Shown here in pieces: positions 16,274 to 64,000 of a DNA stretch of 64,000 nucleotides. A program made the position numbers and the translations under genes. The first letter of the stretch is position 1. Each line of letters begins with the position of its first letter. The stretch is taken from contig JAHLEZ010000035.1 in assembly GCA_020726505.1 (NCBI GenBank), positions 478,250 to 542,249 of the forward strand. Direction: 5' to 3'. Source of the DNA: Leptodontidium sp. MPI-SDFR-AT-0119. Its lineage: Eukaryota > Ascomycota > Leotiomycetes > Helotiales > Leptodontidiaceae. The notes under the pieces were generated by a model that was given only the letters and a program-made list of their open reading frames with translations, searched no databases and had not been told where the DNA came from.

Positions 16274-19200
16274 TTAGCCATCAATCGCAAACCATGTCCC
16301 CGGAAAGTTAAAATCTGCAACGGGATAGAAATCTTCGAAGGTGACATCAAAATTATTCTGCCAAGAACCTGGGAGGTTAGGATAAGCTTGCAGTATAACT
16401 TTTATCTCTAGCCTCCAGCTCTGTAGATCGCTCTGTCGTTTGTCCAGCCACGTGATCATCCATCCGTCCCATAACGCAGCCCACGTCAAATCTGTGCCTG
16501 GGACAGCGATTTCGTTGAACGAAGTGAATTCACTATTGAGGAAGAGGAGTTTTAGCATTCTTCTGGCCAGGTAGGCGGCGGGATCGTAGCAGAAATTAAA
16601 CGGGGAGCTACTTACGGGGAGGCGAGGAATCTGTAGATTCTATCCCGGGCGTTGGTGAAAGCTAAGGATACCGGTTCCTTAGAGAGATACTCCATTACTA
16701 ATTTCGCAGACTCGAGGCTCTGGATTGTTTCCGCGTACCCGGTCTGGGGCCGTGGGAGGACGTTATGTTGCCGTTCAGACTCTGTAAGAGGCCGCCCGTT
16801 CATGATCTATATCCACACGTTTAGCAGTCGGACGATCACTGGGGTGCAACACCACTTACAGCGCCTTTGAACAAGTTCAGCCCTCGTTCCAACACAAATA
16901 ATTCACCCAGTCGGCTATCAGGATAGTCCGGATGGATTGGGTCGTACCATGCCATCTGTGCCATCATCTGTTTTGCTGCGTTCTCGCCGTTATTCGCTGT
17001 CCCGAAGATTCGATTGAGACCTGCGCAGTCGTACCAGCCGCGTTCAAAGACGAAGTAGAAGAAATCTTTCACTATGTGCTTCTCAAACACATGTTCCGCT
17101 ACCTTTGGATTAAAATCGTTTCTTTTGTGGGGGGTTCTGCAACTCACTGTCATATTGATGTTCAACCCCTCGAGCTGGATTTCCTCGCGACGTGTAGTAG
17201 TACACATCATTTGTGCAAGACATCCTATCGGGGAACGACCTAATATAGGGCCGACAAAGCGTAATCTGCTCATCACTTGGCCAGTCTGGGACGTTGTAGT
17301 CCCACTGCATATCGATGTATGGCCCGCCAAGATCTATGTTACCGATACCCAAGATATCAGGAGCAGAGCGAGATGTGTCGGCGCTGTTCCTGTCATCCTG
17401 TTCAAGATCATCGGCTTTTTCATTGCCATTATCAGGCTGTGCAGTCCCCGTTGAAAGCCTACTAGTGGACGGGTATTTAGGGGCAAAGAAATGGAAGTCA
17501 TTATTTTGTTGACAGAAATCGATACGCGGCTGGAACTTCCCGTATGCGATGCCGTAGTTTCCAAGTTTGCCGGTACTGTATCGCTTTTTAAGGGCGCTGT
17601 GACTAAGTTCTTGGTCTGGGAGTTCGTCCTCGGGGAGTGATCGTTTAAGAGGCACCATCGGGGGTGCGGTTGCAACTGCGGCGAAGATATCGCATGCATT
17701 GGCCGATGATGTTGTTGAGGAAGAGGTGGTGGTGCTCGTCTTAGTGGGCTCTGGATTTGGTGTCTCTTGGGTTGGATGGTCAGTCACCGTTGGGGGATTA
17801 TCGCTGGGCGTCAGCAACTTGAGAAGAGAGTCAAAGATATCGCGGGCGACGTTCACGGCAGTATACTACAGCGGATTAGCAGCCGACTGGAAAGCAAAGA
17901 AACCAAGACATACTGCCGCAGTAGCAAGCGCGAGGGCCTCGGCGATTGGAAGCGCGACCGGGACTAGTGACATAATTTCTGCAAACGCTGACTCGAATGC
18001 TGCTTCTATTAATTGTTAATATTTGACCTATTCATTATGGGAGAACTCCTTACGCTGTGCAATGAAGGGATCAGAGATACTGCTGTCAATCTAGGCCGCG
18101 TCAGGTGATGGTTTCAATCAAGAGGTGAATACGTACTACTTGTAATTCGAAGGCCTCTTGAACTTGTGGAACTCGTCGTTTGAAAAGGCTGCCTACTCTG
18201 GCGTGAACATTGAAGTTGGGGACGGAATATCTGTACTTACTCAAGGTCCGCGCACGATTCTGCACACCGGTCAGCAAAGCCTCCAGATCTTCTTGTCGTT
18301 TTCGGATGATAGATCGCCGAGTAGGGACTTGAGCCGCATTTTTCAGTGCAGCCAACGACTCATACAAAGTAGAAAGATAATCGCTGATCTCCCTGATGGC
18401 GTCGATTATCTCTTGCTTGCTAAGTGGAGGTCTCCACTCGGTATTTTCATACACGTTCGCAGCATATGCACCGCCGCATAGCTGGCTGGATTCACCTGAA
18501 CATGCGACTGTACAGGCAGAGGACTTTTGACCCGAAGACAAAACACTTCCCCAGTAGCACTCTGACCCGTATTCGACCGCAATGTAGCGAACATACCCTG
18601 CTTTTGCGATACATTTGGCGACAGTTAGTGCTCCATCTGTGGAGCTGCCTTTCTGCAGGAGTCGTGGATTGCTGGAATCTACGTAACAGCCACTACTTTG
18701 CCAATTGCCCGAGCTGGGTAATACTGTGGGGCCGGATGTTGGGGGTTCATCGAAGTTTGAGTTTTGATATACAGTAGCAGCGTTTCCACCACCACAAAGC
18801 TGGGTCGCAGCGCCTGCGCAAGCCATATTGCAGTTTTCGGAGGTTTGTGCAGAGGAGAGTTCGTTGCCCCAGTAGCATTCAACTGCATACTCTACTGCAA
18901 AGTACTTTGACGATCCTGCCTTGGCGGCACAAGCTGCGACTGTCATCCCACTGTTGTCTACAAAGGATCCCACTGAGAGGAGTCGTGGCGCCGCCGAATC
19001 GGTATAGCATCCGACACTTTTGAAATTCCCAGTGCTAGGAACCAAAGTTGGAGAAGAAACTGCGGAGGTTGTAGTAATTGAAATAGCAGTTGAAGTTGTC
19101 TTTGAAGCCGTAGTTGAGGTCGTCGTTGGTTTTGGCGCAACATAAGCCGTATTCTCATATACCTGCGCTGATCCAGACCCGCCGCAATTTTGGTTGTTGT

Positions 19201-20577
19201 CTCCTGCACATGGAGTATCGCATGTTCCGGATTGGGTCGAGGCAAGGGTATTACCCCAGTAGCACTCTCCCCAATACTCCACTGCAGCATATTTGACTGC
19301 AGTGCCCGCTTTTGCGATACATGCAGCAACAGTCAGGCCACTATAGTCTGTGAAACTACCTTCTGAGAGGATCCGAGGCGTGACAGGGTCTGACATACAC
19401 CCAATGCTCTTGAAGTTTCCAACACCAGCAATAACCGTTGGTACTGGTGGTTTGTAGTCTCCGTTGAGGTACAAATTCACTAAATTATGATTAGATGTAT
19501 CTGGAATTAGGTGAGCGGAGACTTACTGTATCCTGCGCCTCCGCATTGGGCAGTAGGAAACCCTGTAGGATTAGTTAACATTCCTCTTTTTATAGTTGTC
19601 GTGTAACCTACCGGAGCAACCCATATCACATTTGCTAGTATCTCCCTTAGTCGAGGTTGCAGCAAGCTCATTTCCCCAGTAGCATCTTGATCTGTCAGTC
19701 ATGCCTTGATACCTGGTTTGAAGATACTTACTCTACGCCATACTCCACTGCAAAATATTTGAAGCCAGCTGCTTTCGTTGCACATACTCCGATTTTGACA
19801 TCAGCTCCGGTGTAGGAATTTGGAAGACCGCGGGCATTTTCACTATCTGTGTAGCAACCTTGGGCGGTCCATGCATTCAATTCAGCCGTTTGTGTCGGTA
19901 TTGGAGCACAGGCATTGTTCCCACATTTTGTTCCAGATTTGCACAAATACTCTGATTGTGTCTGAGTATTCCAACAGCAACTATCTCCATCTACGCCACA
20001 ACTAGCTCCACTGGAAACGTGAGCAGAAATATTTCTTTTTGAGTTTTCCTACTTACCAGCACCATTCATTCTTAGCTTGAGAGCAGTAAGTCTTGTATGT
20101 AGGACAAAACATATTTCCAGGATTTAAACATGCCAGTTTGGCTCCGTCCTGAGGCCATGGGGAAGTTGTAACGGTATCAGCAGGGCCACAAACAACGGCC
20201 TTGTAGCCCTCTGAACAGTAGAGCAAAGCTGTGGGAATCACACATGCTGTATCACCCTGCGACATATAGCAATGCCACCCATCTTGAATTGAAGTATTAG
20301 CGGCGCTGATATGGTATGAGTGTATCGACTTACTTGCGCATCCTGAATCTGAAGGGCACCTTGTACAGACGCTCGTCTGTATGGCTCGTGCGATGATATT
20401 TGGGGACGAAATGCTTCCATAATCCAATGAAGAATGATTAGAATTTTCAACATTGAAGTCAAAGGAGACTTTAGATGGAGAGATGTTTTCATCGGATAGC
20501 CTGTCAAACTTTTGAGGGATCGCCGTAGTCGATCGAAATAATCCAAAAAGGACAGGCAGAAACTGAAAGGAGTACAT
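16274..20577 (-). CDS. Multi-WSC-domain secreted or membrane protein
   Basis: Predicted 1214 aa from 12 exons: complement(16274-16562, 16616-16806, 16860-17098, 17148-17803, 17870-18005, 18133-18162, 18241-19479, 19527-19562, 19612-19691, 19732-20010, 20057-20282, 20334-20577); every junction keeps phase. An N-terminal signal peptide is followed by a Cys-rich region (CTRCPSDSGC, GASCGVDGDSCCW). Four WSC carbohydrate-binding domains follow, at about 180-290, 309-400, 439-529 and 544-632, each with GCY/M-D...PR-L, a CYWGNEL-like block and C-G-G. The C-terminal 580 residues have a hydrophobic stretch (PVALPIAEALALATAAVCLG), a Thr/Ser linker and an aromatic domain I do not recognise. WSC domains bind cell-wall glucans; the role of the C-terminus is unknown. 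One join is uncertain: intron 17804-17869 (GTAGTA...GCTGACGCCCAG) removes an in-frame TAG at 17866-17868. If it is not an intron the gene is broken there. Confidence 0.78.
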
Positions 20578-28215: not shown

Positions 28216-30445
28216 TCAAAGCTCCTCCACCACTTTCTCCGAGACCCTTCCATCGGCCTGGACGACGACCTTATCAACGTGCAGCGAAGCCTTAACGGGG
28301 TTCTTCTGAGCATAGATGTGCTCAAGCTCTTCTAGAGATCGTCCCTGAGACTCGACGCTGGAAGTAAACCAAAGTTAGCATGCCGTTGCAATATAGAGCC
28401 AAGCCATTGCAAGGAGGGAACTTACCAGAAAAGATACCAAAGGATACTCTCTATAACATCCCAGCCGACGAAGATCCAGACGTATTTGTAGCCAATGTTG
28501 CCAGTGGCGATCGGGGTACAGAAAGTGTTGATGAAGCCCATACAGCCCACAATAAAGCCAGAAGCTGCAAGACCCTTGGCACGTCTGTTGGTGTCGAGAG
28601 CCTCGGCGGGAATAACGCCTTGGAGTGGGGTGTATGTGAATCCGTAGGAAACCTGGAAGAGGAAGTAGAATGCTAGAGCGCCTTTTGCGTACGGCAAATT
28701 GGTGATTTTCGAAGGTGAGACAGAATTGTCAACCTTCATGGCTGAGGTAAGACCAGCGTTGCAGGCAAGGACACAAGCACACACTAGGAGGTCCTGTGTT
28801 AGACAGGAGTCACGATTGACGGAGTATTGACACTTACCGAAGGTTCCGATCACAAGAACCTTGCGACGAGGCATTTTGTCCGTCAACGACATGCCAGTCA
28901 AGCCGCCCATCGCTTGCAGAGCGGTGGCAAGGATGTTGTAACCGAGCTGTTGGGCGGTGGTGGTGATACCCATATTATTGAAGATAGCCGCGTTGTAATA
29001 ACCCAAACCATTACCCGAAAACTGTCCGAAAATGGAGATCATGAGTACTTGAGCCATTCTCCATCGTCCATGGTGCGTGGAGAATAGAGGGCGATCTGAA
29101 AAACGAAGCGGGTCAGGTTAGTAATCCAGGTCTATACCACAGTCTTCGTGTCTTCTTCGACGTTGAAGGGATTTGAGCACTTACAGTCCCACCAAACTTT
29201 GTCAAGACCATCCACCTTAATTCCTTCACGCATCTCCTCGATTTCAAGACGAACAAGGCGGGAGTTGGCGTCTCCATTGCCGTGATACTTGATAAGGAAA
29301 GCCAAAGCCTCCTCATGGCGTCCGTTGGCCATGTAGTAACGAGGCGACTCGGGAATAAACCAAACTGCACAGATAACGAAGATGCAAGCAAAGCATTGCA
29401 AGATGAGAGGGATTCTCCACGACCAGTCGCTATTGATGTTATTAGTTCCGAAAGTAATAAGAGCTGCCGGAATACTGCCGCCAAACCAGCCGTTGTTGTA
29501 AAATCCTGGCAGGACGTGTTAATCAATCGGTATTCGGTGAAATTGAAGAAATTGAGGCAGGGGAGTTCTTACCAACACAACGACCGCGCCAATGGGGTGG
29601 GGAAATCTCGACAGCATAGGCGGGCGCTGCAACCGTCATCATCTGGATGCCAGCACCGAGAATGAATCGACCGACGACAAGCTGCGCCATTTTGTGTGAC
29701 GATGCAGCAACTATAGAACCGAGAATGATGACCCAGGCTCCACAGAACATGCCGACTCTTCTACCGTACCTGTCTGAAATGATGGCACCGACGGGTGAGG
29801 TAACGATAGAACCACTGTGAAGCCAGCGAATAAGTCTCTCTCACTTTCTCTATTTTTGGATGTGGATACGCTTCGAGAGAGTCTAGAACGGGTGGTGATA
29901 AGGCTACCTACACATTATAGAGTGAGGAAATACCAGCAAGCCTGATACCAGTGAGAGAGGTACCGAAAGTCTTTTTAAAGTGATCCATGGCGCTAATGGA
30001 TCCAATGAGCGATCCTAGCATAAGTTAGTAAAAATCCACTGCCTTATGGCAGCCAAGCAGCTGTGTAACTAACCATCGTATCCGTTGGCACACGCACAGG
30101 AAAATGCAACAAGAACCGCAACTACGTGAGGCTCGAGGTTAGTCACCGCCATCGATATCGTAACCTGCTTAGGAAAATGGGCTTACAGTAAAGATGGATT
30201 GATTCCTTGCTCCATTTGTTTATACGGGTCTCTTGGAGAGCTGCGAACAGTTCGGCCTGCAGTCGCCGAGATCAGTTATGAAAAGCTAGTATGAGGACAA
30301 GAGCGTTTGGTCTTACATTGTACACATTTTTTGCTTGGGCTCCTTCATTCGCTGCTGTCTTCCCAGAGCCTGCAGCGACAATGGTGTGGTGTGAAAGGTC
30401 AGGACCCGCCTCGCTGATTTCGGGGCTCTGTTCTTCCTTGGACAT
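28216..30445 (-). CDS. MFS sugar transporter (hexose/lactose permease type)
   Basis: 556 aa, twelve-helix plasma-membrane sugar:proton symporter by family. Exons complement(28216-28357, 28426-28783, 28838-29095, 29185-29505, 29573-29814, 29912-30014, 30074-30121, 30187-30256, 30317-30445); all eight introns have GT-AG ends and keep phase. Family motifs appear in order: CANGYDGSLIGSI in helix 1, SDRYGRRVGMF (loop 2-3 D-R-x-G-R-R), VGRFILGAGIQ, PESPRYYMANGRHEEA (loop 6-7), FSGNGLGYYNA (helix 7 sugar-binding region), and CVESQGRSLEEL after helix 12 (P-E-T-K-G-R in relatives). A Ser/Glu-rich N-terminal tail precedes helix 1. No stop or frame break was found, so the gene looks functional. The Q-x-x-G-N-G pattern places it nearer to fungal lactose permease-like carriers than to Hxt-type glucose carriers, but the substrate is not determined. 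Confidence 0.92.
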
Positions 30446-33767: not shown

Positions 33768-34742
33768 CTAAGCATCTGGATGGTCTGGATCGTCCGAGTC
33801 TAGGTCGTCTTCGTCACAGTCGTTGTCGTAGGCGCTATCGTCTAGAGCAGCAATAGTAACCTTGCCGGTACTATTGATGTATAGTCTCAACTTGCAGTCT
33901 TTGACCCAATGGCCTGGAAGTCCGCATCGTACACACAAACCATCAGCCCTAAATTGTTGCCTAAGCTCTGGGGAGACTGAGCGAGCGCGTGGGGCGGTAG
34001 TATTGATTGCTCCAATGGTTACAGCGTTGACGTCCATTGGCTCGCCGTGCTGATGGTTATTGGCGTTGTAGTGTGAAGAGGAAGAAGGGTTGTAGAGAAT
34101 AGACGGGGCAGAGTTAGAAGAACGGCCGGCTAGTTGCTGTATGATTCGTACAAAATCAGAGTACTTGCGAGGAAGGTTTAGCTGCTGAGCAAGCCGACTG
34201 CGTAGTGTAGAATTCAAGCCGTTCCGGAACGCGGAGATCTTATTGACGTCTGGCCAGTCTTGACCTCGAGCCTCGTACAGGACTCGTTTAAACTTAGCCA
34301 CATAGGCATGGAGAGAGTCGGTGCCTTGTTTAAGGGCATATAGCTTGTCCTCCGCTTCCTGCACCTTATTCGGGTTGTCGTAGACACGCGTAAGCTGGTC
34401 GAGTATTGTATTGTAGTCATGAGACGACTCGTCGGCTTGGGAGAGTTGAGGTAGGACCATTGCTTGAACGTGGCTCTCGAGGTTGAGGTAGACGTAATAG
34501 AATTGAGCAGTAGCGTCGCCAATTGCCATGCCGTCGACTTGTAGCTTGGCCTTGATCGAGGGGAGCCACGTATCGTACTTGTGGGCTTGTCCGTTAAATT
34601 TTTCGGGGTCGGGTAAAGAGGGTTTCGGTTTTGAGGGGGTGCGAGTCGCAATAACCGTTCGGAGGAAGGTAATCTCGTCGCGCTGGCGCTGCAGCTCTGC
34701 CTGCAGGTCTGCAAGAGTAGCCTGAATTTGGAGTTGATCCAT
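33768..34742 (-). CDS. Gag protein of family 2 element
   Basis: Intact 324-aa Gag. Residues 1-35 form a predicted coiled coil (QIQATLADLQAELQRQRDEI). Then come PDPEKFNGQAHKYDTWLPSI (the capsid-like F-x-G...Y-x-x-W-L block), NPNKVQEAEDKLYALKQG and YVAKFKRVLYEARGQDW. A CCHC zinc knuckle, CVRCGLPGHWVKDC, is at about 277-290, followed by an acidic tail. Gag forms the particle and packages the RNA. Homologous along its whole length to the broken Gag at 11719-12765. The start Met is the only one before the coiled coil. Confidence 0.9.
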   Translation of the reverse strand: MDQLQIQATLADLQAELQRQRDEITFLRTVIATRTPSKPKPSLPDPEKFNGQAHKYDTWLPSIKAKLQVDGMAIGDATAQFYYVYLNLESHVQAMVLPQLSQADESSHDYNTILDQLTRVYDNPNKVQEAEDKLYALKQGTDSLHAYVAKFKRVLYEARGQDWPDVNKISAFRNGLNSTLRSRLAQQLNLPRKYSDFVRIIQQLAGRSSNSAPSILYNPSSSSHYNANNHQHGEPMDVNAVTIGAINTTAPRARSVSPELRQQFRADGLCVRCGLPGHWVKDCKLRLYINSTGKVTIAALDDSAYDNDCDEDDLDSDDPDHPDA

Positions 34743-34915
34743 TGGCTGAGAGTAAAAAGAGAGATAAAAAAACGTGTGCGTATAGTTTCAAATGAGCCTA
34801 ACAAGCTCAATCGTAGTAATCGTGAAAGCGTGAGACGTGAGACGTAGCCTAGAGTAGAACATAAGCATAAACCTAGGACCTGGGGTACTCAGTCTTAACT
34901 GAGGATCTATTGTAA

Positions 34916-35076
34916 TGTTACGGAGGCACTCAAGACAGACAGATTCAAGACAATACACTTCGTACTTAGAACAATAGATACAGAAGAAGGACAGCTGTAG
35001 CTGTAGCTGACCCCTATATCCTCAAAGCTGAAACACTAGCCCCTGAACACGTGACGTCAGCACCAAGATCGTCACA
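34916..35076 (-). repeat. Long terminal repeat (5' LTR, family 2)
   Basis: 161 bp, nearly identical to 33547-33707, with the same TGACGTCA element (35052-35059). As the 5' LTR for the minus-strand element it would be the promoter of gag. Confidence 0.93.
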
Positions 35077-35081
35077 AATTC

Positions 35082-37167
<2,086 letters not shown>

Positions 37168-38946
37168 TCAGGCCTTGCACTTCTCCAGCCTAACAACGAC
37201 ATTCCACCAGTCTAGCTCGTCAAGGTCTTTTCCTTTATTCTTCTTCTCATCAGCTGGCACTTCCGATCTCATCAGCTCGAAGAAAGATGCCACCTCAGCG
37301 ATACTCTTATATTGCTCAATCTGCATGTTCAACAAATCGCTCACCACATCTCGGTACACAGTGCCCATTTTGTGCCCTAATCTTGGCACATAGGCTGTCA
37401 ACAATTTCGTGAGAAAGGCTGACGGAGTGTATTTTTCTTTCCAAAGTGCATTGATTTGCTCCCACAGACCAATCTCAAGCAGGACAATCCCAAGGGAGAA
37501 CAGATCATGACGTTGCTGGAGACGTATTGCGTCACCGGCACCAGGATTGCCTCTGGACTTTACGATCTCTGGATGACGATAAAGATCATGCAAGCGATTT
37601 GGAAGGGAGTACTCGAGGGTGGATTCGGCAGGGTCATTGGGTTTTGAGTACCCAAAGCCGGATATGTAAGGATCATTAATACATGGCTGGGGAGTGGATG
37701 AAGACGAGTCCGCTTGCTCGGAGAAGAAGAGTATCGACTCGGAGCGGAATGAGGTGTGGACCCAACCACATTCATGGAGACGAAGAAGGGAAGACGCCAG
37801 GGTGCGGGCAAGGGTGAAGCGGTCGCCCAGGTCAAGGAGCAGCTCGTGAGGACCGCCACGGGAGAGGAGATCGTGAAGTGTGACAGGTGGTTGCTGCACA
37901 GTGTTTGATGGGAACTCAAAAAGGTATCCATAGCGAGGCAGAGCCTTGTCCCTGAAGTATCCTAGGCAGTTCAGGACACGAAAATCAGATGGTTTTGGTG
38001 AAGCTGGCTCTAAAAGACGGGCAAGGTTTTCCATACGTTGTGTGATGAGTGCCTGGTAGGAGTTTTTCTCATCGATGGTCTTCCACTCGATTAGAATCAC
38101 TTTGCTGCAGTATTCCGCTAGAATGCGAAGTCCTGTAGGAGACTGCTTGATATAGCCCATTACGGACTCTGAGTCTCGTTCATGATCCCGAGTCACGTCG
38201 ATTGGTACACTCGACCCCAACGGAGGGAGAACTTCTTCAGACTGTTTAATTGCGAGCTTCTTCGCACCCGAGGCTTTGATGAGGTCCACATAGGGCGATG
38301 AAAGCCATCGTCGTTTTGATGAACCATCCCTGACAGCCTCATCTCTGTAGGCTATACATGCTTGTTGAATATTATCACAGTCGACAGGATCATATGTCAG
38401 GCGCAGGATGTCCGACTCATTGCAAGCTCCAATCGATCGTCTTTCGCTGGCATCAAATAGGCAATAGAGGCCATCGTTGAGCTCCTTCAGGTCCGAGACA
38501 AGGCTGGCGAACTTTTGTTTGTCCTTCAGCGACCACAAAAATTTCTGTGCCAGAGTCGGTTTGTCGGGGTTTCTGGCGCGCAATATACCTAGCAGAATGC
38601 GCTGCTCAAGAGACTCTGGTTCAGAAACTCCCTCAATCTTCAGGCCGTATTTCTCCTTCAGTTTCTTCGAGTCTGTGAAGAGCTCCTGGATCTGGGTCAA
38701 AATCCCTCTCACGTCTTCCACAAGATTCTCTTCTTCAAGAAACTTGTCAAACTCTTCCCGACCAGCACCCCAATGCCGCCCCCAGCTCCTGAGTCGGACT
38801 TCTTGAATGCGCAGCTTCCAAAACTCGATAGAAGCATCTCGCCTCAGGTGTTGTGCTGTGGAGATGAAGCGGTAGCTATGGACAGCAGATACGAAGAGCT
38901 GGGCGGTTAGGCCCAAGACGGCGAGACTAGCTTCCATGCCTGACAT
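37168..38946 (-). CDS. HeLo-domain pseudokinase
   Basis: 592 aa from ATG 38946 (the frame is open to 39096, where an earlier ATG would add 50 residues; 38946 is chosen because it places the HeLo domain at the very N-terminus). Residues 1-190: HeLo four-helix bundle, starting MSGMEASLAVLGLTAQLFVS and containing the family's R-L-R-x-W-G block (VRLRSWGRHWG). HeLo is the membrane-targeting death domain of fungal allorecognition proteins. Residues about 270-560: protein-kinase fold, with the possible VAIK-type lysine in VILIEWK, the helix-F aspartate in HDLFSLGIVLLE, and Arg/Pro-rich later helices. It is catalytically dead on paper: the H-R-D loop reads HECGWVHTSFRSES (no Asp) and D-F-G reads SGFGYS. 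No prion-forming repeat is visible at the C-terminus. A single exon. Divergent from the kinase-ankyrin gene starting at 39211. Confidence 0.85.
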   Translation of the reverse strand: MSGMEASLAVLGLTAQLFVSAVHSYRFISTAQHLRRDASIEFWKLRIQEVRLRSWGRHWGAGREEFDKFLEEENLVEDVRGILTQIQELFTDSKKLKEKYGLKIEGVSEPESLEQRILLGILRARNPDKPTLAQKFLWSLKDKQKFASLVSDLKELNDGLYCLFDASERRSIGACNESDILRLTYDPVDCDNIQQACIAYRDEAVRDGSSKRRWLSSPYVDLIKASGAKKLAIKQSEEVLPPLGSSVPIDVTRDHERDSESVMGYIKQSPTGLRILAEYCSKVILIEWKTIDEKNSYQALITQRMENLARLLEPASPKPSDFRVLNCLGYFRDKALPRYGYLFEFPSNTVQQPPVTLHDLLSRGGPHELLLDLGDRFTLARTLASSLLRLHECGWVHTSFRSESILFFSEQADSSSSTPQPCINDPYISGFGYSKPNDPAESTLEYSLPNRLHDLYRHPEIVKSRGNPGAGDAIRLQQRHDLFSLGIVLLEIGLWEQINALWKEKYTPSAFLTKLLTAYVPRLGHKMGTVYRDVVSDLLNMQIEQYKSIAEVASFFELMRSEVPADEKKNKGKDLDELDWWNVVVRLEKCKA

Positions 38947-39210
38947 GACTACGGTATCCAGAGACACAATAAAAGTTGCCAGAAGTTGTTGATATTTGAA
39001 GCCCTCATCCACAAGCGCCAGCGGACACAGGGTTGCAGAAAGAGGTGGATTGTGGTGCCCGATCAAATAGCGAGATGACTCGCCAAGAGGTTGCATTCAG
39101 CTGAGGCTGAATCTACTGAAGGTGCATGCCCAATCCATCGTTCTGCTCCCTGGGATTTCCACGCACCGCCTCAAGGCGGTGAGACATACTTACGGGCATG
39201 AACCTTCGTA
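38947..39210. promoter_or_regulatory. Short shared promoter of a divergent gene pair
   Basis: 264 bp between the two start codons, or only 114 bp if the HeLo gene starts at 39096. It must contain both promoters. In the middle lies CACCGCCTCAAGGCGGTG (39164-39181), an inverted repeat with perfect 8-bp arms and a 2-bp spacer, suitable for a dimeric regulator or a hairpin. Co-regulation of the two genes is inferred from this arrangement. Confidence 0.55.
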
Positions 39211-42200
39211 ATGCTTAGGCCACCCGCAAAAAATATCGAGCTTTCGCCTGGTCATATATCCAGGAGGCGGGGGAACTCAGTGCAGAAGTTAAAAGAACAC
39301 TCAACTCCTTCTACCGTGTTCATTCACCCAAATCAGGATGCGATGGCTGCATCATCCATTCTAGCTTCTCGACAATGGAGGGATGACCATCCCTCATTTG
39401 CAAACAGCGATGCCGCCAATATTCCAGAGGAACCTTACCGGATGAAAAGCTCTGAAGCTCTACTGCTCTTCCTCGAAGTTGTAAGTGCAGGATGCGTTGG
39501 AGTTGCCACCGATCTCGAGCCAGTTCATCATCTAGAAACCCTCGGTGAAGGACTCTCCTTCTCGGTCAAAGTGCACACGAGAAGGAGATCTAGCAAGTTC
39601 GTGCTCAAAGTTTTCAAACACAGCCTTGTTGTGGGCGAAAATGCCACCTTCAACCAAGATCAGCTCACAGCACTCATTATGGAGGCTCACGTTCTGGGCC
39701 ACAAGCCTCTTCACGACCACGAGAACATCGTCACCATGACTGAGATAAATATGGCAATCCGATCAAGTATCCCCCTCCAGATCTCCCCGGCCCTGTGTCT
39801 CGAGCGCGCACCTCATGGCACTTTGGATTCTTTTGAGCAGTCAGTCTCCAAATCTCAGGTCAGCTGGGCAATGCGAAAGATGCTCTGCTATGATGTGGCA
39901 GCTGGTGTCAAGGCTCTTCATGAATGCGGAGTTGTTCACGGAGATTTGAAGGCAGAGAATGTGCTCATCTTTGATCACCCCGTTCGAGGCTACATCGCCA
40001 AAATCAGCGACTTCGGATCAGTCGCCATACTACCAACCGACGAATCTCAGCAGCAAAGGGTCCGTCTATCTGCCTTTACACCACCATGGAATGCACCTGA
40101 AGCTACAAGCTACATGGCACCCTCCGAACTACCACTCACGGATATGTACTCACTCGGCCTGCTCCTGTGGAGAATCTTCGTCCATCGGGATCCGTTCTTG
40201 CTATTCGACATTCCACTGGACCCAGATCTCAGGCTTGAGCGGAAAGGCACGATACTCGCCGTTTCCAATATTTCTGGGCTGATACCTTGCTTTATTGAAG
40301 AAGAAGTTGGCTTTTTGGATACAGAAGAGATTCTACTTCTTGTGCGGATCTTCGCTCATACTGTTAATGTGGACCCAAAGACTCGATCACTTGACCGGGT
40401 CTTAGAGCTGTTGGAGCAGCACAGTGGTAGACCACAAAATAAGTACGCTCCTAGATATAGACACGGTGAAAAATTGTGACAGAGCTAATCTTTGTCAGTG
40501 CAACGACTACCACACCAGACTCGAAATCATTGGAATTGGCCGCTCTTCCCAATAAGCTCCGTGATGTATTGACCCCGGCTTCGCACTCTGCTCCTCGGTA
40601 GGAAGCTAACTTCAGAATTAGATTCCTTCCAAGCTTGATTGGATTCAAAGATTCCACTATCTCGTACAAAGGCAAATCCTGTTCGCCCTGGAAGACTTTT
40701 GTGGCTTCAAACCAATTCCGAATGGTCCACAAACCCTCCCCGAAACCTTCGAGGACACTCATCTCTACGAAAACGCGATCTGGGCTGTCTTTAAATGCCA
40801 CTTGTTGGGTATCGGTACAGATCCGAGTCCAGAGATAGCACTGGATATTCTCTATCACAGTGGTCTGCCGGAGAATGGCAGACTTTGGAAATCATGGGTC
40901 GTCATCGGACCGCTTTACAAAGCCCTTGGAATCAAAGTTCCCGAGGAGAAGTTCGTCCACGTCGCAGCAATGTCCCTGGGTGGCTCTTTGGACTCCGAAT
41001 TTCACCAGATCGTCTTGTCAGGCAAAGAGCCATACGAGCATAAAGTTGCCAAATTCCACCGAATCGAACTTTCCCAGGAGCAGTTCCGTCAGCTAAGAAC
41101 TAGAATTGCTGACCATGGCTTGGATCGAAGTGCGAGTGCTCATGCAGAGTTTGACGACATTGAAGTTGGCGGCAGCAACACGCTTCTACATGCATCTTCA
41201 TTCTACGATGACGCCATGATCGCCAGCTATCTCGTCAGGAATGGACTGGTAGATATTGACGCCGCGAATGACTTGGGGGAGACTGCTCTCCTTATCGCTT
41301 GCAAATACAACTCATACGACGTGCTCGAGCTTCTCTTGACCAACGGTGTCGATGCGTCCATTGCTGACAAACAAGGCCAAAACGGCCTTTATTGGCTAAT
41401 GTCTCTTCCGCAACAATCAACACTAAATATAGCGAGAAGACTCGTTGAGAACGGGGCACGTCTATCGTGGATGGTGATGGATGTACACAAATCCGAGAAC
41501 ACTGACCTCATTCCCCAATCCTTTCTCCAGCATGGTCGAGTGAATGGAGGTCCCCTACTCCAAGCGATTGCACGACGAGATCTCCATTCTGTCAAGATTC
41601 TGCTTCAGCTCTGTATTGAGTCCTACGACGAACCTATCATTCTGCCCGGAGCCTTATTTGCAGTACCGTTGCGGCTAGCTGCAGACCTTCACCTATTCGA
41701 GATCTTGGAGTTTCTATGCTGGGAACTCGGCAAGGTGCTAACAAGGATAGGAGAAAAGGACATTGCGCCAAATCTAGTTGGGGGTGTGTTCCTGTATATA
41801 ACAAAGACCGACTCCGTCCTCAGAGGAGCTATCAGGATGGCGCAGCATGTTTATCGGCTATGCTATCATGGCGAAGAGTGGAAAGAGGCGGCAAGGAAAA
41901 CAATGGGTGTTCTTCACCGGTTTGGATTCGTGAGTCAGAGCATGGCAGTATTCAACACGATGGAACGGACCCTGAACACCGCAATCGGTGCCGGGAACTA
42001 TGAGGTAGTGAAGGAATTGCTAGAGCATCAGGAGATTCTGGAACAGATTGATGAGGCTGACGAGGACCATTTCGACACTCCAGTAAACAAAGCCCTGAAC
42101 GGCAGAAGGCTCGATATCATGCAGTTACTCATCGAGAAAGGAGCAACAATTGATCTTCGGAAGAAGAGGGATCCAAAGCACAAACTTAGCGGTGTCGAGG

Positions 42201-44552
42201 CAAGTTACCTCCATGTCATCGCCTCCCTACGAATTGAGAAAAACGATTTCGCCGAACTTCTTCTGGAGCAAGGAATTCCACCAGACGTCAAGGACAATCA
42301 AGGTCTCGATGCCTTTGGGCTCGCACTCATTCGATGCTCCTTCAATCTTTGTAGATTGCTACTCAGCCGTGGCTATGACCTGCGAGCACCATGTTTGTTC
42401 GGCTTGACCGTCCTAGGGCAAAGATTCGAAAAACAATTGGCAAAGCAGCACGATGATATTTATGAAGCAGTGAAGTATGTTCTTCCATCCAGCACCTGTG
42501 GCTCCTTCCGATAGATGCTAGAAGTATATGGCTGACTGGTAGAGTAGGTTCTTGCTCGAGTTTGATGGTCCTGGAGGGCAATCACTATTCATCGTCGACT
42601 CTACCAACAATCAGAGTGTTTTGCATATTGCAGTAGCATTTCCCCTGGAAGATGAGACTCGATACAGAGATGTACTGACCCTGTTATTGTCTCACTTCAA
42701 CAAGCCAGAGCACCTGAATGCCCAAGCGGGAAATGCATCCAAATCGACTCCACTTCAAATGGCCATCGCAATGCGAAATCCGATTGCAGTGGCTGCTCTA
42801 ATTGAAGCTGGTGCCAACATGAATATCCAAGACAAGACCGGATCAAATGTCATGGACATTGCTCGCCAGGTTATCACCACCCTTATCGGTGAGGATGCTG
42901 CGGCAAAGCCCAAGAATGCAGGACGGGAGCTGAAACGAGCATTCCAAACACTCTCTGTCCTTGCAAGCTGGCAACCGTGGCCCGAAGATTTCCGCCGGAA
43001 CCAGCAATTGAAGGCAGCGCTCGAGGAGGTTACGCCGTTGATCAACAGGATGATGCAGCTCTCGCACCAAGAGTGCTACGTTCTTAGACTCGAAACGAAG
43101 GCTCTCCAGCTTGTCGCCAATCGAGTAAAGGGGCCGGCATCAACTTTGGACGCTTCTGAGCACATGAGACAGGAGGTAAACAGCATCATTCAACCATGTC
43201 TTTACGCCGAGATCGCTGCCTACGTGGCGCCTAATGAGGAATGGGCACGAAATTCCAGTAGCAGTTATACGTCTGTCCGACGCCGAATTCCATGGTGCAA
43301 GACTATCAATAACGCCAACCTTAGCTCCTTCCAGCAAGCAGCCGCCCTGGAGTGGCTCCTTGAGGAGATCAGAGAGCGCGGACAGGTGGAAGAAGGAAAA
43401 AGCCTCTATGGCCTCTCCCGCTTCGCACATTCTGGCGATCCGGCCCACCTACCAATTGATCACCGATTCGTCCGCTGGCCTCCAACTTTGCTGGACTGGT
43501 ATGTCCGCGCCATCCAAGAGGACCAAGTCGAGCTCGAAGCGTCTGAAAAGGAAGAGGTTGCTGGCTACGTGGAAATTCTCCGTTCTCGCCGAGCCGCCCA
43601 ATCTCGCGGCGTTATCCTTCCACCCTTTTCTCCTGAGTTCAAAAAGCTTCACTTTGAGCAGCTCCAACCCGACAAACTTGACTACGACTCCGTCTGTGTA
43701 AGTCCCATCCTCCTTTACCGCTGCCGCTGCTTCCGCGAGAAAATTAGTGCTTGGACCGTCACCTCTGTTGAGCAGAACTCCCGCGGTGCGGAGTTATGTT
43801 TTACTCTTTTTGGGACTGATCCCATTGGTGCCTTGTATAAGGTCAAGGAGCGCGAGATCAAGCGTAAGAGTGAAGAGATGAAGTGGAAGAAAAGGATCGG
43901 GGTGGATGAAGGTGAGGGACGAGTTGAGAGGACAGGAGTACGGAGGAGTAATAGCGTTGCAGAGGTGCTGCAGATTCCGAGTCAGCAGATGCTGCGCTTG
44001 TTGAGGAGTGGATCTGAGCCATCCGATGCTGTTGATGATGGGAGAATTGTTGAAGTTGATTCCAATGAAGATGAGGACGAAGATCGCGATGTTGAGGAAA
44101 GCTTCGGAGATCAACAAGCCAGTGCTGGGACGGAACAAGACAGAGAGGCTTTCCTGCGGCCCACTGAAGCCAGAGACAAGGAGGGCGACGACGATAGTCT
44201 CGAAGAAGTTGAAGATGAAGAGGGCCCCAGAGATGAGGGCCCACACGAGAGACCAACAGAAGAAACCTCATCAACTCCACCCCCTATCGAGGTTGAGGAC
44301 GACCATGTCGTATCCGCCTTAGTCGCCTACCTTTTCCACGCCCAAGCCAATGAGGTGGGGTCCGGATTCAGCCGTGATACCAAGTTCGCTATCCAGCATA
44401 TTCGTGATGCAAAAGTTGACGGAAATGGTAGGATAACGATTGAAGAAGTCATTGGTGGTAGTGTCGATTCTGAACAGGAACAAATGTATACAGAAGTCGA
44501 GGGGAGTGTGGTTTTACCCGAGAAGCCGTTGGAAAGGCGGTCGGCGCAGTAG
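39211..44552 (+). CDS. Protein kinase with ankyrin repeats
   Basis: Predicted 1719 aa from exons 39211-40442, 40499-40565, 40622-42474 and 42545-44552; the three GT-AG introns remove stops and join in phase. Residues about 105-410 are a kinase with all catalytic elements: glycine loop LGEGLSFSV (111-119), Lys133 in FVLKVF, Glu158, catalytic loop VVHGDLKAENVLI (Asp245, Lys247, Asn250), DFG 267-269 and APE 295-297. HGD in place of HRD is a tolerated variant. Residues about 560-960 hold ankyrin repeats, e.g. NTLLHASSFYDDAMIASYLV, GETALLIACKYNSYDVLELL, then a helical region and further repeats (TPVNKALNGRRLDIMQLLIE, STPLQMAIAMRNPIAVAALI). The tail is very acidic (SNEDEDEDRDVEE). An alternative start is Met45. 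A further intron after YDSVC (43696 on) is possible but not needed. Likely cytosolic signalling protein; partner of the HeLo pseudokinase by position only. Confidence 0.83.
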
Positions 44553-45020
44553 GGAGACAGCGAGTATAGAGACCTAACAGTTAGTACGATAGAATTGTAG
44601 ATGATGATTCTAACATACAGAGTGAGAAAGACTCTTATAGCCCCTTAGCTGTTATAAACACACCCTTTAGCCAGTGTGTAAAATGATTTGATTTGATTTA
44701 ATTAATGGCTATTAATTAAAATCAAATCAAATCAAATCAGATTAATTGATTATTAATTGATTAATTTGATTAATATAAGAGCCGCATCCTAATTAGGTAT
44801 AGAGTGCCAAGATCTATCCTTGTTAGGTTTAACGTATACTAAAAATAGGGATGGCGAGTCCTAACCGAGCTTTACGTAGCTTAGCCAAGTAATTCTAAAG
44901 CCTTTTTTATAACACTTGATTATATTAACTAATAATAAACAAAAAATATATATTAGTAAGTATTTAATAATATATTAATAAGTTAAAGAATATATTAGAA
45001 ATAAAAAGTAGCTTATATTA
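44553..45020. mobile_element. Left end of a second hAT-like element (partial)
   Basis: From 44672 the sequence CAGTGTGTAAAATGATTTG begins a TIR like that at 11295, followed by paired AATCAAATC/GATTAATT repeats and the shared landmark AATATAAGAGCCGCATCCTAA. No matching right end was found before the next element, so it is truncated or is the host DNA of the hAT insertion at 45029. 44553-44671 is the 3' flank of the kinase-ankyrin gene. Confidence 0.55.
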
Positions 45021-45028
45021 TTAAGTAC

Positions 45029-48000
45029 CAGTGTGATAAATAGATTAGATTAGAGTAGTACTCACTACTCTAATCTAATTTAGTAAATTTATATACTACT
45101 CTAAATCTAATCTAATCTAATCTACTACTCTAGATTACTACTCGAGTAGTAGTCATGTGATTATTACACTAGCCAAAAGTAGTCTAAAGCAACGGTCCTT
45201 ACCAAATAAGGCTTAGCGAGCGGCTTTACCCGAGTGACGAATAGTGATTCTTCTCACGTAGTTTACTTAATAACTTTATAAATATAACTTTAATTAAGAA
45301 ATTGTTTAATAAAGCTAGTTATATTAGTAAGTAGTTATATTATAAATTATAGATTATTTATAACTTATTAATTAAATTAATAATTATTATATTAGAAATG
45401 TTTTGATTTATAATTCGGATTATAAATCAACTTTCTAAAGCTTTCTGTTATATTATTAATTACTTTAAGCTATAGAATATACTAGAACTTAAAGCTTAGG
45501 TATAAATAAGTCGTTCCCTTTTACTGACGTTTACTTTTCTTTATTCAAAGTATTTTACTTATCTTACTTAATACTATTAAATTATCATATAAGTATCGAT
45601 CTTATTCTACTACTTATTATTCAAAATGGTTAATAAAACCTCCGTCGCCTTAAATATAGCTCAAAATTCTCCTGAATTTAAGCTTGAAGAATTAGAAAAT
45701 AGCCCTATTATATATAAAAAAAAGCTATTTTCTAAGACTTTAAATCCTCCTAAAGAAAATCCGGAAAATATCGAAAACTATCGAACGGTTACTATTAAAT
45801 GTTTACGTCCCGGTTGTAAGTAAGTTATGTAACCCCTTTATTAATATTTATTAAAATATTTACTAATTAATTAATAGTAAAACTTGGAAAAACGAAAGAG
45901 TTTATGAGTCTACGAGTAATTATATTGCTCATTATAAAAACTCTCATAAAGCTTTTAATATAAGGAGAGTTCTAAATAATATAGACGATGGTACGTATTT
46001 TTTTAAATTATATTAAGGATTTAAGCTAATAATTATTTATAGATTCCGACGTAACCGAATCTTCACAAGGAACTACTAGTACTATTTCGGACGCTTTTAT
46101 TAGACAAAGAGCTGTTAAACGGCCTAAATCTCTTGAACAAGTATTTGATATTAATAGATTTAAGAAGCTTCTTTTTAAGTTTATTATATTAAATAATATA
46201 TCGTTCCGAGCAACTACTTCAAACTCTTTTAAAGAGTTGTTATTTTATCTTAATAAGTAAGTCTTTATTATAACTTTTATAAAGTAATTACACTAATACT
46301 TTATAGTCAAGTACCGAAGTTATATTATTAAGCTCTTAAAGAAGATTTGAATTCTCTTTATTTAGAGAAACAATCTTTAATAAAAGAAGAGCTTAATACA
46401 AACATTAAAACAAACGGTTCTTTTAGTTTAACTTTAGACGCTTGGACGGCTATTAATCAAGACGCTTATCTTGGAATTACAATGTAAGTACTATTAAAAT
46501 CTAATTAAGATAAATAAATTACTAACTTAATGTAGTCACTATATTAATAAAGACTTTCAATTAAAGTCTCATTTATTAGTAATGAAGGATTTAAAAGAGC
46601 CTCACTCTGGCCTTTATTTATTCGAAGTCTTATTACAAACGTTACAAGATTATAATATTGAATATAATATTACTAGGTACGTTTTCTATTTAATCTATTA
46701 AGAATATAACTAACTATTTATATAGTATTACAAGAGATAATGCTAGTTCTAATGATACTTTAATAAAAGCTTTAAAAAGCTATTATGATTTATCTGGAAT
46801 AGCTTTTCAAGGCGATATATCTTGTATTGCTCACGTTTTAAACTTAGTAGTACAAGATATCTTAAAAGCTATTATAAAAGAGGCTTATAATAACCTTAAT
46901 AATAATGATGTTTATAACATCGAAAATGAAGACGAAATTGAAGAAGATATACCTAATAGTAAGTTTGCCCTTATAATAAATTGATATTATTTATTAATAA
47001 ATTAACTTTTATTTAGATATTTCTTTATAGAATCGAATTCGAAGAATAATAATTGGAGTTAAATATTCTCAAGAAAATATGAGATTATTAAAGAGCCAAA
47101 TACAAGCTCTTAATATACAAAATCCTAAAATACCTCAACTTAGTAAGTTATTTTATTAAGATATATATTACTAATAATATACTAATTAATACTACTTTAG
47201 ATCAAAAAACAAGGTGGTCTTCAACAGCTAATATGCTTAAAGACTTTTTACACCTTTGGCCGGCTATTAAAATCGTTATTAGCTTATCCGAGTCAAAAGC
47301 TTTTAAAAAGAATAAAACTATTCTTTTATTAAGAGACTCCGAAATTTTATATTTAGAAAAGTGCCTTAAAATATTTAATATCTTTGTAAAAGCTACTACG
47401 AAATTACAAGCCGATAAATACCCGACTATATATTATTTAATACCAGAGGTATATAATATATATAATCGGTTAGAAACTATTCGAGAAGAATTAAATGTAA
47501 GTATAACCTAATAAATACTAATAAAGTAAGCTAATTATTTTTCTAGGATCCTCTATTTACAGACGCTATAAACAAAGGCATTGCTAAATTAAGGAAATAT
47601 TACCCTAAGCAGGGTATAAACCTTGATAATAAAGCTTTATATTTATCTTTGATTTTAGATCCTAGAATTAAAAGAGACGGTTTAGAGCTTATAGGCCTTA
47701 ACAGAGGTCAATCGACTGATATATTTAATCGATTAAGAGAAATATATAATATATAAGTTATACTTTTAAAGATTTAATTATCAAAAAAATAACTTATTAA
47801 CTTTTATAGATATAAACAAGACTATTTATTAAGTTTACCTCCTTTACAACAAGCCGAAAACATAAATTTAAATCGAAACGACGACGACGATTTAGATATA
47901 TATATAGAAAACAACGATAACGACGAAGTTAATGAATTTACTTTATATTTCGACGAAAGAAGAGCAAATAGAACTGTAAGTTTTTAATTACTATATTATT

Positions 48001-48562
48001 ATCTTATTAAAATAAATACTAATATTTTATTTTATTAGGTTCAACCTTTAACCTTTTGGTTTAATAACAAAGACAAATTTCCAGTTTTATCTTTAATAGC
48101 TCGCAATTATTTACAAATACCGGCAACTTCCGCGTCTTCGGAGAGATATTTTAGTCAAGGAGCTCTTATTATTAATAAGCTAAGAAATAGGCTTAGTAAA
48201 GAGACTTTTGAATTAATAATCTCTTTAAAAAGCTGGAGTGTCTTTAAAGAAGACTTAAAAGAAGAAGAAAGAATTAATATTAGAGAAGAGGATATGTTTA
48301 TTATTGATTAGTTTATTTAGTATAGTTATAAATAAAAGTGCTTAATTACATTAGTTTTAAATCTAATATCTCTTAATTACTTACTTATATATTAACTTAT
48401 ATAAAATATGTTTATTAATAATCTAATAATCTAGATTAGGCAAGATTTACTACTCTAAATCTAATCTTAAATTTTTAGATTTTTTACTAATCTAATCTAA
48501 TCTAATCTAATCTACTACTCTAGATTACTACTCAAGTAGTAGATTAGAAATTTTTCACACTG
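45029..48562 (+). mobile_element. hAT transposon, near-complete
   Basis: 3534 bp with inverted ends CAGTGTGATAAAT... and ...AATTTTTCACACTG and a perfect 8-bp target duplication TTAAGTAC (45021-45028 and 48563-48570). Both subterminal regions are filled with TCTAATC and ACTACTC repeats in opposite orientation, the usual transposase binding sites of hAT elements. The transposase gene lies in the middle on the plus strand. Ends and target site are intact, so the insertion is comparatively recent even though the gene has a few stops. Confidence 0.93.
45626..48311 (+). pseudogene. hAT transposase, multi-exon, with in-frame stops
   Basis: About ten short exons separated by TA-rich introns. In order: a BED-type zinc finger (CLRPGC ... 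HYKNSH) in exons 1-2; LTLDAWTA and ITRDNASSND (two catalytic Asp regions of the hAT RNase-H fold) with CIAHVLNLVVQ; TRWSSTANM; KYPTIYY; and at the end the hAT dimerisation domain (PATSASSERYFSQGALIINK ... RNRLSKET). The stop is TAG 48309-48311. In the best frame-consistent joins two internal stops remain, TAA 46329-46331 (QAL expected) and TAG 47028-47030, both explicable as CAA/CAG to TAA/TAG; the donor near 47755 is also not GT-perfect. So it is probably recently inactivated, unless my joins are wrong. Confidence 0.85.
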
Positions 48563-48570
48563 TTAAGTAC

Positions 48571-49239
48571 TTTAAAGAAACTAATAATAGCTAACGCATC
48601 TCAATATAGGCTTAAGGATTAAGACAATTACGAGATAGTCGTTACTAATTTTAAATAAGCCGTGGACTTATTCGCTATTTATAATTACTCGAGCTTTATT
48701 TATAACTACGTACACTTAGTCGTTTAAGTAGAGAGCTTATAAGAGTAGATATGAGATAATACATCTCGAGGGTTAAGGCGTAGGCAAGAAACGAAGTAAT
48801 TATCACTAGTCTCTTTCTTACTTATCCGAAACCTTAGACTACATAAATTAATCCGCGACGTAAAAGGTCCCTCTAAGGCTAAGTTCGACTCTAAACAGGT
48901 ACTAAGTATTATAAGAACAAAATAAACACATTTAATAATTTAATTACTAGCTTTAATTATAATATAAATATTTATATAAACGTTAATAAGGGCTAGTAGT
49001 AATAATTACTTAATCTATTATATACGAATATAAAAAAACCCGTTATTTTATCTTATTAAAATACTCGCTTATTTAATCTATCTCTAATTCCTTAGGGTTA
49101 AGGTTTGAGGTTTAGGTTATATTTGTTTCTAATAACGCTAACTTGCTACAAGTGTTTTTCTCTCTCTTTATTTCTTGTATAAGTATATATATAAGGTATA
49201 TTATAAGTAAAAAAGTAAGGTTAAAGTAAGTAAAATGTA
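48571..49239. other. TA-rich flank, nothing supported
   Basis: No readable domain on either strand. Forms the right flank of the hAT insertion and the left flank of the minisatellite. Confidence 0.5.
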
Positions 49240-61600: not shown

Positions 61601-63434
61601 CCGAAGGACAGGCGTCTGCGTTATAATTAGTCCATCGCCCGTCCTAAATACAGCCGTTAGTCATCGTATTACCCACTAGTAGTAGCAAGTCAGTATTGTT
61701 TTTTTCGATAGCAGCAATGACCTAGCAGTAGACGGTCATCGTCGTTGTGCTATTTGCCGTGTTAGTTAATAATATTATTGAGCGTAGACAAGCGGCTAGG
61801 TTAGATTACGAAGAATAGATTAGTGAGAAGTCCGGACATGAATTACAGTAGTTAATTGTGGTTAGTGTAGACCGGGCGGTCTAAGGCGAGTTTTTATATT
61901 ATGCTAAGGGTTTGGAGTTAGAAGGGCAATTAGCCCATGTGTTTTTCGATGAGGTCCATATTATATTTACTGATATATTATACCGTGAGCGGTTGCGAGA
62001 GTTATAGACATTACGATATTTAAATTGCCTATTCACCGGATTGACGGCGACGTTAATGATAGATTTAGAGGATGTATTACGGGAGCGGTTATATATTGAT
62101 AATACCCAAATATTCCGGCGAAGTACAACACAGAAGACGATTCGATATCAGGTGAGGGATAGCAAGAATGAGGCCCCATCCGACGTCGCCATCAAATATA
62201 TCTAACAGACACATTTAAGAGCAAGTACGAGAGGGGTTATATATGTCCAGAGTTACAAGACTAGAGGGGTCGTCAGTAGAGTATTAGAATGTCTATTTTA
62301 TCGAGCACGCGCGGAATCGAAGGGGGAGGTATTACAGCAGTAGGTCCAGGGTGCCGGCGGGTGGATTGTGGCCACGGGGGCATTAGGGACCGGCATCAAC
62401 ATCGAGGGGATCGTTTACGTGGTCTACGTTAGGCGACTATATAGATTGACTAGTTTCGTGCAGTAATCTGGACGCGGGGGGCGGAATAGCGAGGTCAGCG
62501 AGTCAATTATTATCACCCGGGTTAAGAATAGTCATAGGCGGAGACAGAGTGAGGTCATGAGCGAGTATTCGGTTGAGCAGATCGATGAGGATGCCATGAT
62601 AGAGTTTATCTAGGGCCAAGGGTGTCGACGTTAGGTATTAGGTCGGCATATAAACGGTGATTAAGATAGAAGTAGTTATAGCTAGACGGACAGTGTGTTT
62701 TGTGACTAGTATAGGATAAGTAGCTAGGCGAGGGGCCAAATACACGAAGAGTCAAGGGAAGAGCCCGGGATCGACGTGGTAAAGGAAAGCGATGCGATTA
62801 AGGGAGCGGATATTATCTAGCGCAGGTTAGGGCGAGTACAAGTATCCCAGGAGTAGATGATCGCGGTGATGGATCGATTGCAAGGTGATTATATATATTG
62901 TGGATTAATATATAAGGAGTATGTGAGAGGCCGGGCACATGTATATAAGGATTGTCGGCACGCCGTGGAGACCGGATGCGGGATTACGGCATATGAGGCA
63001 TAGAGAGAGAATGTTGATTTAGGGACATTTCAACATTGTTAGAAGTGCGGATTGTCCTAAAGGATATGCCGGCGTTTGGAAGACGACGGATAGTGTGAGT
63101 ACCCTGAGGTGATATTGCCGGGGATATTTATATTATACTAAGAGCAGCATTTGCAGGTGATTGTTAAGGCGGCGGGATTCTAGGGGGATTATACAGTTGA
63201 TATTTAGGAGTAGTTAAAGGAGGTAAGAGAGGGGTTTAGTCAGGATTGGGAGAGCAATTAGATGAAGACATAGCGAATGGCATGTGAGATATATGCTAAG
63301 ATAATAGAGGGGGACGGATCGCTAGCAGGAAGGGTATAGAGAGGATATGATGTATTCGGTGCCGGAGGGGGTCCCAAGCCACTAGGGCCGAGTCCGAATT
63401 GTGGCCGCCGAGGGAGAGAAGTGGATTTATTTTA
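58686..63434 (+). pseudogene. Telomere-linked RecQ-like helicase relic, copy C (telomere-proximal)
   Basis: About 1580 codons from ATG 58686 to TAA at about 63434, transcribed toward the telomere. The first 131 codons are open and start MAQPIPQALAYLIKLNVEF; they contain a C2H2 finger (CLQCQYAQRPTYICRHLGDRH) and a second Cys/His group (GCQFKTHGRDIARQH). After that the frame is traceable but filled with TAG/TAA. The helicase core is better preserved than in copy B: PTSSSKSVLFF (Walker A), VFFDEVHIIF (D-E-V-H), GLTATLMI, VATGALGTGINIEG (motif V), QQSGRGGRNSE at motif VI with one stop next to it. A different family from A/B by sequence. Known members of this class unwind DNA at chromosome ends; this copy cannot be translated fully. 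Confidence 0.85.
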
Positions 63435-63849: not shown

Positions 63850-64000
63850 TTAGGGTTAGGGTTAGGGTTAGGGTTAGGGTTAAGGGTTAGGGTTAGGGTT
63901 AGGGTTAGGGTTAGGGTTAGGGTTAGGGTTAGGGTTAGGGTTAGGGTTAGGGTTAGGGTTAGGGTTAGGGTTAGGGTTAGGGTTAGGGTTAGGGTTAGGG
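63850..64000 (+). repeat. Telomere, (TTAGGG)n
   Basis: About 25 TTAGGG hexamers with the G-rich strand running 5' to 3' to the end of the window, so this is the right-hand chromosome end. One variant unit, TTAAGGG, occurs at 63880-63886; a degenerate TAAGGG precedes the array. Confidence 0.99.

Follow-up and report, generated by a model that had tools for sequence, protein, structure and literature searches.

A recurrent pairing of kinase-ankyrin and HeLo-pseudokinase genes in Leptodontidium sp. MPI-SDFR-AT-0119, a candidate fungal receptor and executioner module

Why would a fungus carry a gene for a HeLo domain joined to a degenerate kinase directly beside a gene for an intact kinase joined to ankyrin repeats? 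The two genes stand head to head in a 64,000-nucleotide stretch (the window, to which all coordinates refer) from one genome, that of Leptodontidium sp. MPI-SDFR-AT-0119. We found that this locus is a recurrent two-gene module in this genome and is seen once elsewhere, a conclusion that we hold with high confidence. The features of the pair are as follows.

37168..38946, minus strand: gene 1, HeLo-pseudokinase, 592 aa (alternative start 38937; frame open up to 39096)
38398..38925, minus strand: HeLo domain (PF14479), N-terminal helical bundle, Pfam E 1.7e-30
37327..38127, minus strand: pseudokinase fold, overlapping DUF7580 (PF24476)
37735..37764, minus strand: degenerate catalytic loop WVHTSFRSES, without the HRD aspartate
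37651..37659, minus strand: GFG replacing DFG
38947..39342, no strand: head-to-head intergenic region, 396 bp, putative shared promoter
39343..44552, plus strand: gene 2, kinase-ankyrin, about 1675 aa, three introns
39343-40442, 40499-40565, 40622-42474 and 42545 (or 42548)-44552, plus strand: exons of gene 2
39526..40197, plus strand: protein kinase domain (PF00069), HGD (39937-39945) and DFG (40009-40017) intact
41150..42382, plus strand: ankyrin repeat region
42597..42836, plus strand: additional ankyrin repeats in the last exon
42840..44552, plus strand: C-terminal region, no Pfam match

Gene 1 has the domain content of an MLKL-like executioner, namely an N-terminal four-helix or HeLo bundle and a C-terminal pseudokinase without the HRD and DFG aspartates. 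The initial annotation had claimed both parts, and both were borne out: the HeLo domain is matched by the Pfam profile (PF14479, E 1.7e-30), and the kinase fold reads WVHTSFRSES in its loop and GFG in place of DFG. Furthermore, a profile of the gene 1 family searched against sequences of solved structures matched the HET-s HeLo domain (2wvo) at 1.1e-17, and DUF7580 scored 40.5 bits against a curated cut-off of 27. Among all 19-mers of the protein, residues 4-22 are the most hydrophobic (mean 1.58), a location shared by 11 of the 12 relatives checked among 20 matches. The protein ends in DWWNVVVRLEKCKA, and close relatives end similarly. The best NCBIfam match over 37168-38946 is the bacterial antiphage kinase MAD6, at 28.7 bits far below its cut-off of 460; MAD6 is also the best match for 39343-40476 in gene 2, again far below (37.8 bits).

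The second gene likewise agrees with its first description as a kinase with its catalytic residues followed by ankyrin repeats (PF00069; HGD and DFG intact), and its kinase is predicted to be catalytically competent. No NACHT or NB-ARC match was obtained up to E 1 when its three large exons were scanned with Pfam, so the protein does not qualify as a fungal NOD-like receptor (NLR). Neither a RHIM nor a death domain turned up in the general Pfam scan, in which no search was aimed at either. Homologues from Exophiala and Pseudogymnoascus align into the start of the C-terminal region, to residues 1417 and 1469 of 1675; the far end is acidic and unaligned, and the structure model of the region is uninformative (predicted local distance difference test score, pLDDT, 49).

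To define the relatives of gene 2, the window kinase was used as sole query against the genome and returned 11 matches at E ≤ 1e-5. The kinase subfamily comprises the nine loci that two or more of the three kinase queries recovered; the window kinase alone finds all nine, and the other two queries return eight each, one missing C1 and the other C20. This rule was set after the lists had been seen and leaves out three loci returned by a single query, C7 and C38 (window kinase) and C1:987801. The window HeLo-pseudokinase returned 20 matches, of which 16 are separate pseudokinase loci, three have HeLo only and one is a second exon; another query recovered the same 16 loci and one HeLo relic. A pseudokinase-family gene lies within 10 kb of 8/9 kinase-subfamily loci, where 0.04 are expected (binomial 1e-18, or 3e-15 at an effective genome of 30 Mb), and within 5 kb of 6/9 (0.02 expected); adding the three matches left out gives 8/12. 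The remaining locus, C36, has a frame interrupted by stop codons. This copy (L021 1785-4999) adjoins an open reading frame (ORF) which, on visual inspection, resembles a HET-domain protein.

Counting from the pseudokinase side gave a similar picture. A kinase was found within 5 kb at 8/16 pseudokinase loci, versus none of 18 other HeLo loci (unmatched by the pseudokinase queries) and none of 17 DUF7580 loci outside the pseudokinase family (Fisher 2e-5); within 10 kb the counts are 9/16, 1/18 and 0/17 (Fisher 3e-5). The genome-wide kinase list taken alone, a lower bound with 125 of 464 candidates scored, links 3/16 pseudokinase loci versus 0/35 controls (Fisher 0.03). The pairing of the two genes is beyond chance.

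The recurring pairs differ in their parts. Head-to-head pairs in the window and at C19, C34 and C20 have a kinase of the same subfamily, then ankyrin repeats. C45 is head to head with another kinase type and ankyrin repeats, and C10 sets a decayed pseudokinase frame without Pfam match head to head with another kinase type, with no ankyrin repeats seen. At C11 the genes share a strand, 9.4 kb apart, and ankyrin repeats are present. In the same-strand pairs C1 and C3, an active-looking kinase stands where HeLo would be, and a TPR frame comes after that of the partner kinase. Such N-terminal-kinase pseudokinase genes beside kinase and TPR frames lie at L016 1276-7292, L018 632-6803 and L017 831-7322; C3 has two such kinases, and the TPR of the second (L017 2071-3711) was read by eye. 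A single frame encodes both kinase and repeats at C11 and C45; elsewhere they occupy successive frames, presumably as exons of one gene. Modules are thus swapped on both sides, ankyrin or TPR repeats accompanying the partner kinase and HeLo or an active-looking kinase standing N-terminal to the pseudokinase. Pfam detects HeLo at 10/16 pseudokinase loci and none at the other six in the scans made, C2:2.38 lying outside those scans. Measured between first plausible ATGs, the start-to-start distance is about 200-540 bp in the window, C19, C34, C45, C1:3.46 and L033 (a locus from outside this genome, described below), which leaves out C20 (unresolved) and C10. Pair copies are merely 21-38% identical, the C45 kinase left out, and linkage has therefore outlasted strong divergence.

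Other loci of the family depart further from this plan. At C1:3.46 Mb a HeLo-pseudokinase gene and a Sel1/ankyrin frame are arranged head to head (L026 3893-9718), the latter preceded by two frames of 359 and 340 aa without Pfam match, and this locus perhaps carries another enzyme in place of the kinase. C2:2.38 contains stops and has a weak kinase-profile match just upstream, and no kinase was found within 10 kb at C34:2.10, C2:0.62, C1:2.87, C39 or C4. In addition, C21:73658-81191 holds the decayed remains of a HeLo gene that is 54-56% identical to the C45 gene and contains internal stops, with a kinase match 6.4 kb off, possibly a dead copy of a pair.

When the HeLo-pseudokinase alignment was run against contigs of prokaryotic genomes, two loci were retrieved, L033 and L034. 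L034 is a bacterial kinase. The contig of L033 (NYXK01000099.1) is filed under a deltaproteobacterial metagenome-assembled genome and reads as fungal, with a WD40 gene that carries an NLE domain and that we read as Ytm1-like, and with kinase and ankyrin frames separated as if an intron lay between them. Its HeLo-pseudokinase (HeLo E 2.7e-7; local profile 1.7e-58; DUF7580 22.5 bits, under the cut-off) lies head to head, at a distance of about 470 bp, with a kinase (8e-26) and the ankyrin repeats that come after it (2.5e-24). Because the query held no kinase-ankyrin sequence, L033 is an independent test of the linkage, passed in one case of one; evidence beyond this genome is thin, as linkage across fungi rests on this locus. 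A Paraphoma protein (P0021) is 82% identical to gene 2 over 1123 residues (39343-42893), where the next named relative reaches 36%. Paraphoma belongs to the Dothideomycetes, and the alignment suggests possible horizontal transfer between root fungi.

What could such a pair do? Domain content, catalytic status, recurrent linkage and modular swaps together suggest a receptor and executioner mechanism of the RIPK/MLKL type, which we regard as the best current explanation and as reasonably probable in its full form. The kinase-ankyrin protein would be both sensor and activator, its repeats picking up a non-self or danger signal, and signalling would run from gene 2 to gene 1 in a putative allorecognition or defence role. 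The kinase would then phosphorylate or allosterically engage the pseudokinase of its partner, a receiver that would restrain the N-terminal HeLo bundle. Upon activation, HeLo may be freed and oligomerize, its hydrophobic N-terminal helix may enter the plasma membrane, and this insertion would lead to death of the hyphal compartment. The best argument that the signal is carried by a kinase/pseudokinase contact is that kinase beside pseudokinase is the constant element, while the repeats and the N-terminal effector vary.

The initial annotation had likened the locus to RIPK and MLKL arranged side by side, and the diverged copies in the genome, L033 and a best kinase-fold match to MLKL speak for this in part. 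RIPK3/MLKL shares with the pair a pseudokinase placed after a killer four-helix bundle, and a separate active kinase as driver; the fungal genes differ in being adjacent, often head to head, and in their kinase being followed by ankyrin or TPR repeats. When the pseudokinase alignment was compared with sequences of solved structures, mouse MLKL came second after HET-s, at 1.8e-5, ahead by a small lead of GCN2, LIMK1 and PERK (1.1e-4 to 1.9e-4). MLKL LHRNISSSSFLV/LAGFELSK aligned with motifs of type LHKGLRSENILFF/ISGFDYSRP, with GFx for DFG in both. The single-sequence search lists no MLKL, and given this and the small lead, common MLKL-like ancestry is only a possibility. The kinase profile matches tyrosine kinase-like (TKL) and tyrosine kinases widely, RIPK1 (4e-23) standing below CTR1, LRRK2, CERK1 and others. 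RIPK4 and ANKK1 have the kinase-ankyrin order of gene 2, and plant MLKL joins a HeLo/four-helix bundle to a kinase-like domain as gene 1 does; the likeness is one of architecture, and to our knowledge neither group is known as adjacent gene pairs.

Fungal systems offer parallels in gene arrangement. NWD2/HET-S and PNT1/HELLP also consist of adjoining genes for a repeat-bearing sensor and a HeLo-family executioner. The present pair differs in its kinase sensor, without NACHT or NB-ARC match in the large exons, and in an executioner with a pseudokinase at its end instead of the amyloid motif of HET-S and HELLP. Fungal gasdermin/protease clusters, in which a pore-former lies beside an enzyme fused to ankyrin, TPR or WD40 repeats (PMC12881547), share the two-gene logic and differ in using gasdermin for HeLo-pseudokinase and protease for kinase. 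According to PMC5485727, the PP motif of fungi and the RHIM of mammals occupy non-equivalent pathway positions, the RHIM assembling the kinases that phosphorylate MLKL. The layout had been thought undescribed, which holds in part: HELL domains fused to kinase or pseudokinase domains are already published (PMC12881547, a 2025 review), and we found no description of the kinase-repeat/HeLo-pseudokinase pair in the open-access literature, as far as text was available, including that review, PMC9815663, PMC10197012, PMC12258605, PMC7889193, PMC3321046, PMC5485727 and PMC5613156.

Several results weigh against the proposed mechanism or against a general pairing. In this genome, no kinase was found within 10 kb at 7/16 pseudokinase loci, and the partner kinases of C45 and C10 fall outside the kinase subfamily. 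Some partner kinases have altered motifs (HGN for HGD at C20, HGDLT at C34, DVG and DFA at C3), the N-terminal helix of gene 1 is only moderately hydrophobic (mean 1.58), and, since a kinase replaces HeLo at two loci, a HeLo pore cannot be the outcome for all pairs. The distance matrices of the partners are uncorrelated, with Mantel r -0.30 (p 0.85) for eight pairs, -0.33 (p 0.89) for nine pairs with L033, and 0.14 (p 0.28) for eight pairs with C45 out and L033 in, which speaks against strict co-evolution or is a sign of saturation. Moreover, none of the 20 longest contigs with a HeLo-pseudokinase match (14 of at least 8 kb) occurs among the 67 and 55 contigs with a kinase match; the contigs lacking there include the 18-kb contig of P0001, a 95% relative. 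This negative is weakened, though not removed, by gene calls split at introns and by limits on length in the protein searches. Paraphoma is absent from the five named HeLo-pseudokinase matches despite its 82% kinase gene. The initial annotation had staked the pair on homologues not being consistently found without their neighbour; genome-wide they are not, and the 7/16 unlinked loci, the absent Paraphoma match and the 0/20 shared contigs qualify that outcome.

The surroundings of the pair bear on one of the alternatives. Because (TTAGGG)n telomere repeats close the window (63850-64000), the pair is placed in a subtelomeric region, with about 19 kb between it and the assembled end. AT-rich blocks at 35001-37000 and 45001-49000 (GC content 0.19-0.31) flank it and look like repeat-induced point mutation islands. 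A stop-ridden frame at 61700-62700 resembles, by eye, a RecQ-type telomere-linked helicase, and a gag-like ORF lies at 33768-34787. Ten other window ORFs were scanned, Fasciclin, WSC and sugar-transporter among them (5303-5992, 18101-19522, 28422-29117).

One alternative, that both genes come from large fungal families and became neighbours by accident, could appeal to the abundance of HeLo, kinase and ankyrin genes in this genome and to the fact that no database contig was seen with both partners. We consider it hardly credible, as 8/9 kinase loci lie near the pseudokinase family while 0/35 controls have a kinase within 5 kb, and L033 repeats the arrangement in a second fungus; the linkage counts, the controls and the L033 pair contradict chance adjacency. 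A functional tie could also be that of a killer and its antidote, or an incompatibility element, in which a HeLo-pseudokinase poison would be restrained by its kinase-ankyrin neighbour and separation would be lethal, hence the linkage. Retention of linkage at 21-38% copy identity and the subtelomeric, AT-rich setting of the window fit this idea, but an intact kinase and sensor-type repeats (ankyrin, TPR) suit a receptor better, and an obligatory antidote would hardly allow 7/16 pseudokinase loci without a kinase found within 10 kb; we judge it quite improbable.

The pair might instead signal without killing, with the kinase acting on the pseudokinase as a scaffold or switch of a different pathway and HeLo serving as an oligomerization or membrane-tethering module. 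At C1 and C3 the same pseudokinase bears an N-terminal kinase rather than HeLo, and because of this swap and of the 6/16 loci without Pfam HeLo, pore formation is no fixed trait of the pseudokinase family. On the other side, the most hydrophobic stretch of the window HeLo is N-terminal, at the position of the HET-S pore helix, and characterized HeLo domains are cytotoxic (PMC12881547); we consider signalling without death unlikely. The receptor and executioner mechanism remains the explanation that we favour.

In the known fungal necroptosis-like pathways, an NLR signals to a HeLo protein via amyloid templating. The pair described here is a candidate for the missing fungal kinase-to-pseudokinase arm, and it lets one ask whether that arm predates animals or had two origins. 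A further receptor class, alongside NLRs and with exchangeable repeats and effectors, is also suggested. We tentatively propose that filamentous fungi may possess NLR-free receptors made of a kinase and ankyrin or TPR repeats, each beside an executioner (HeLo or kinase) tethered to a pseudokinase, which would amount to an equivalent of the RIPK3-to-MLKL death circuit, possibly of common origin.

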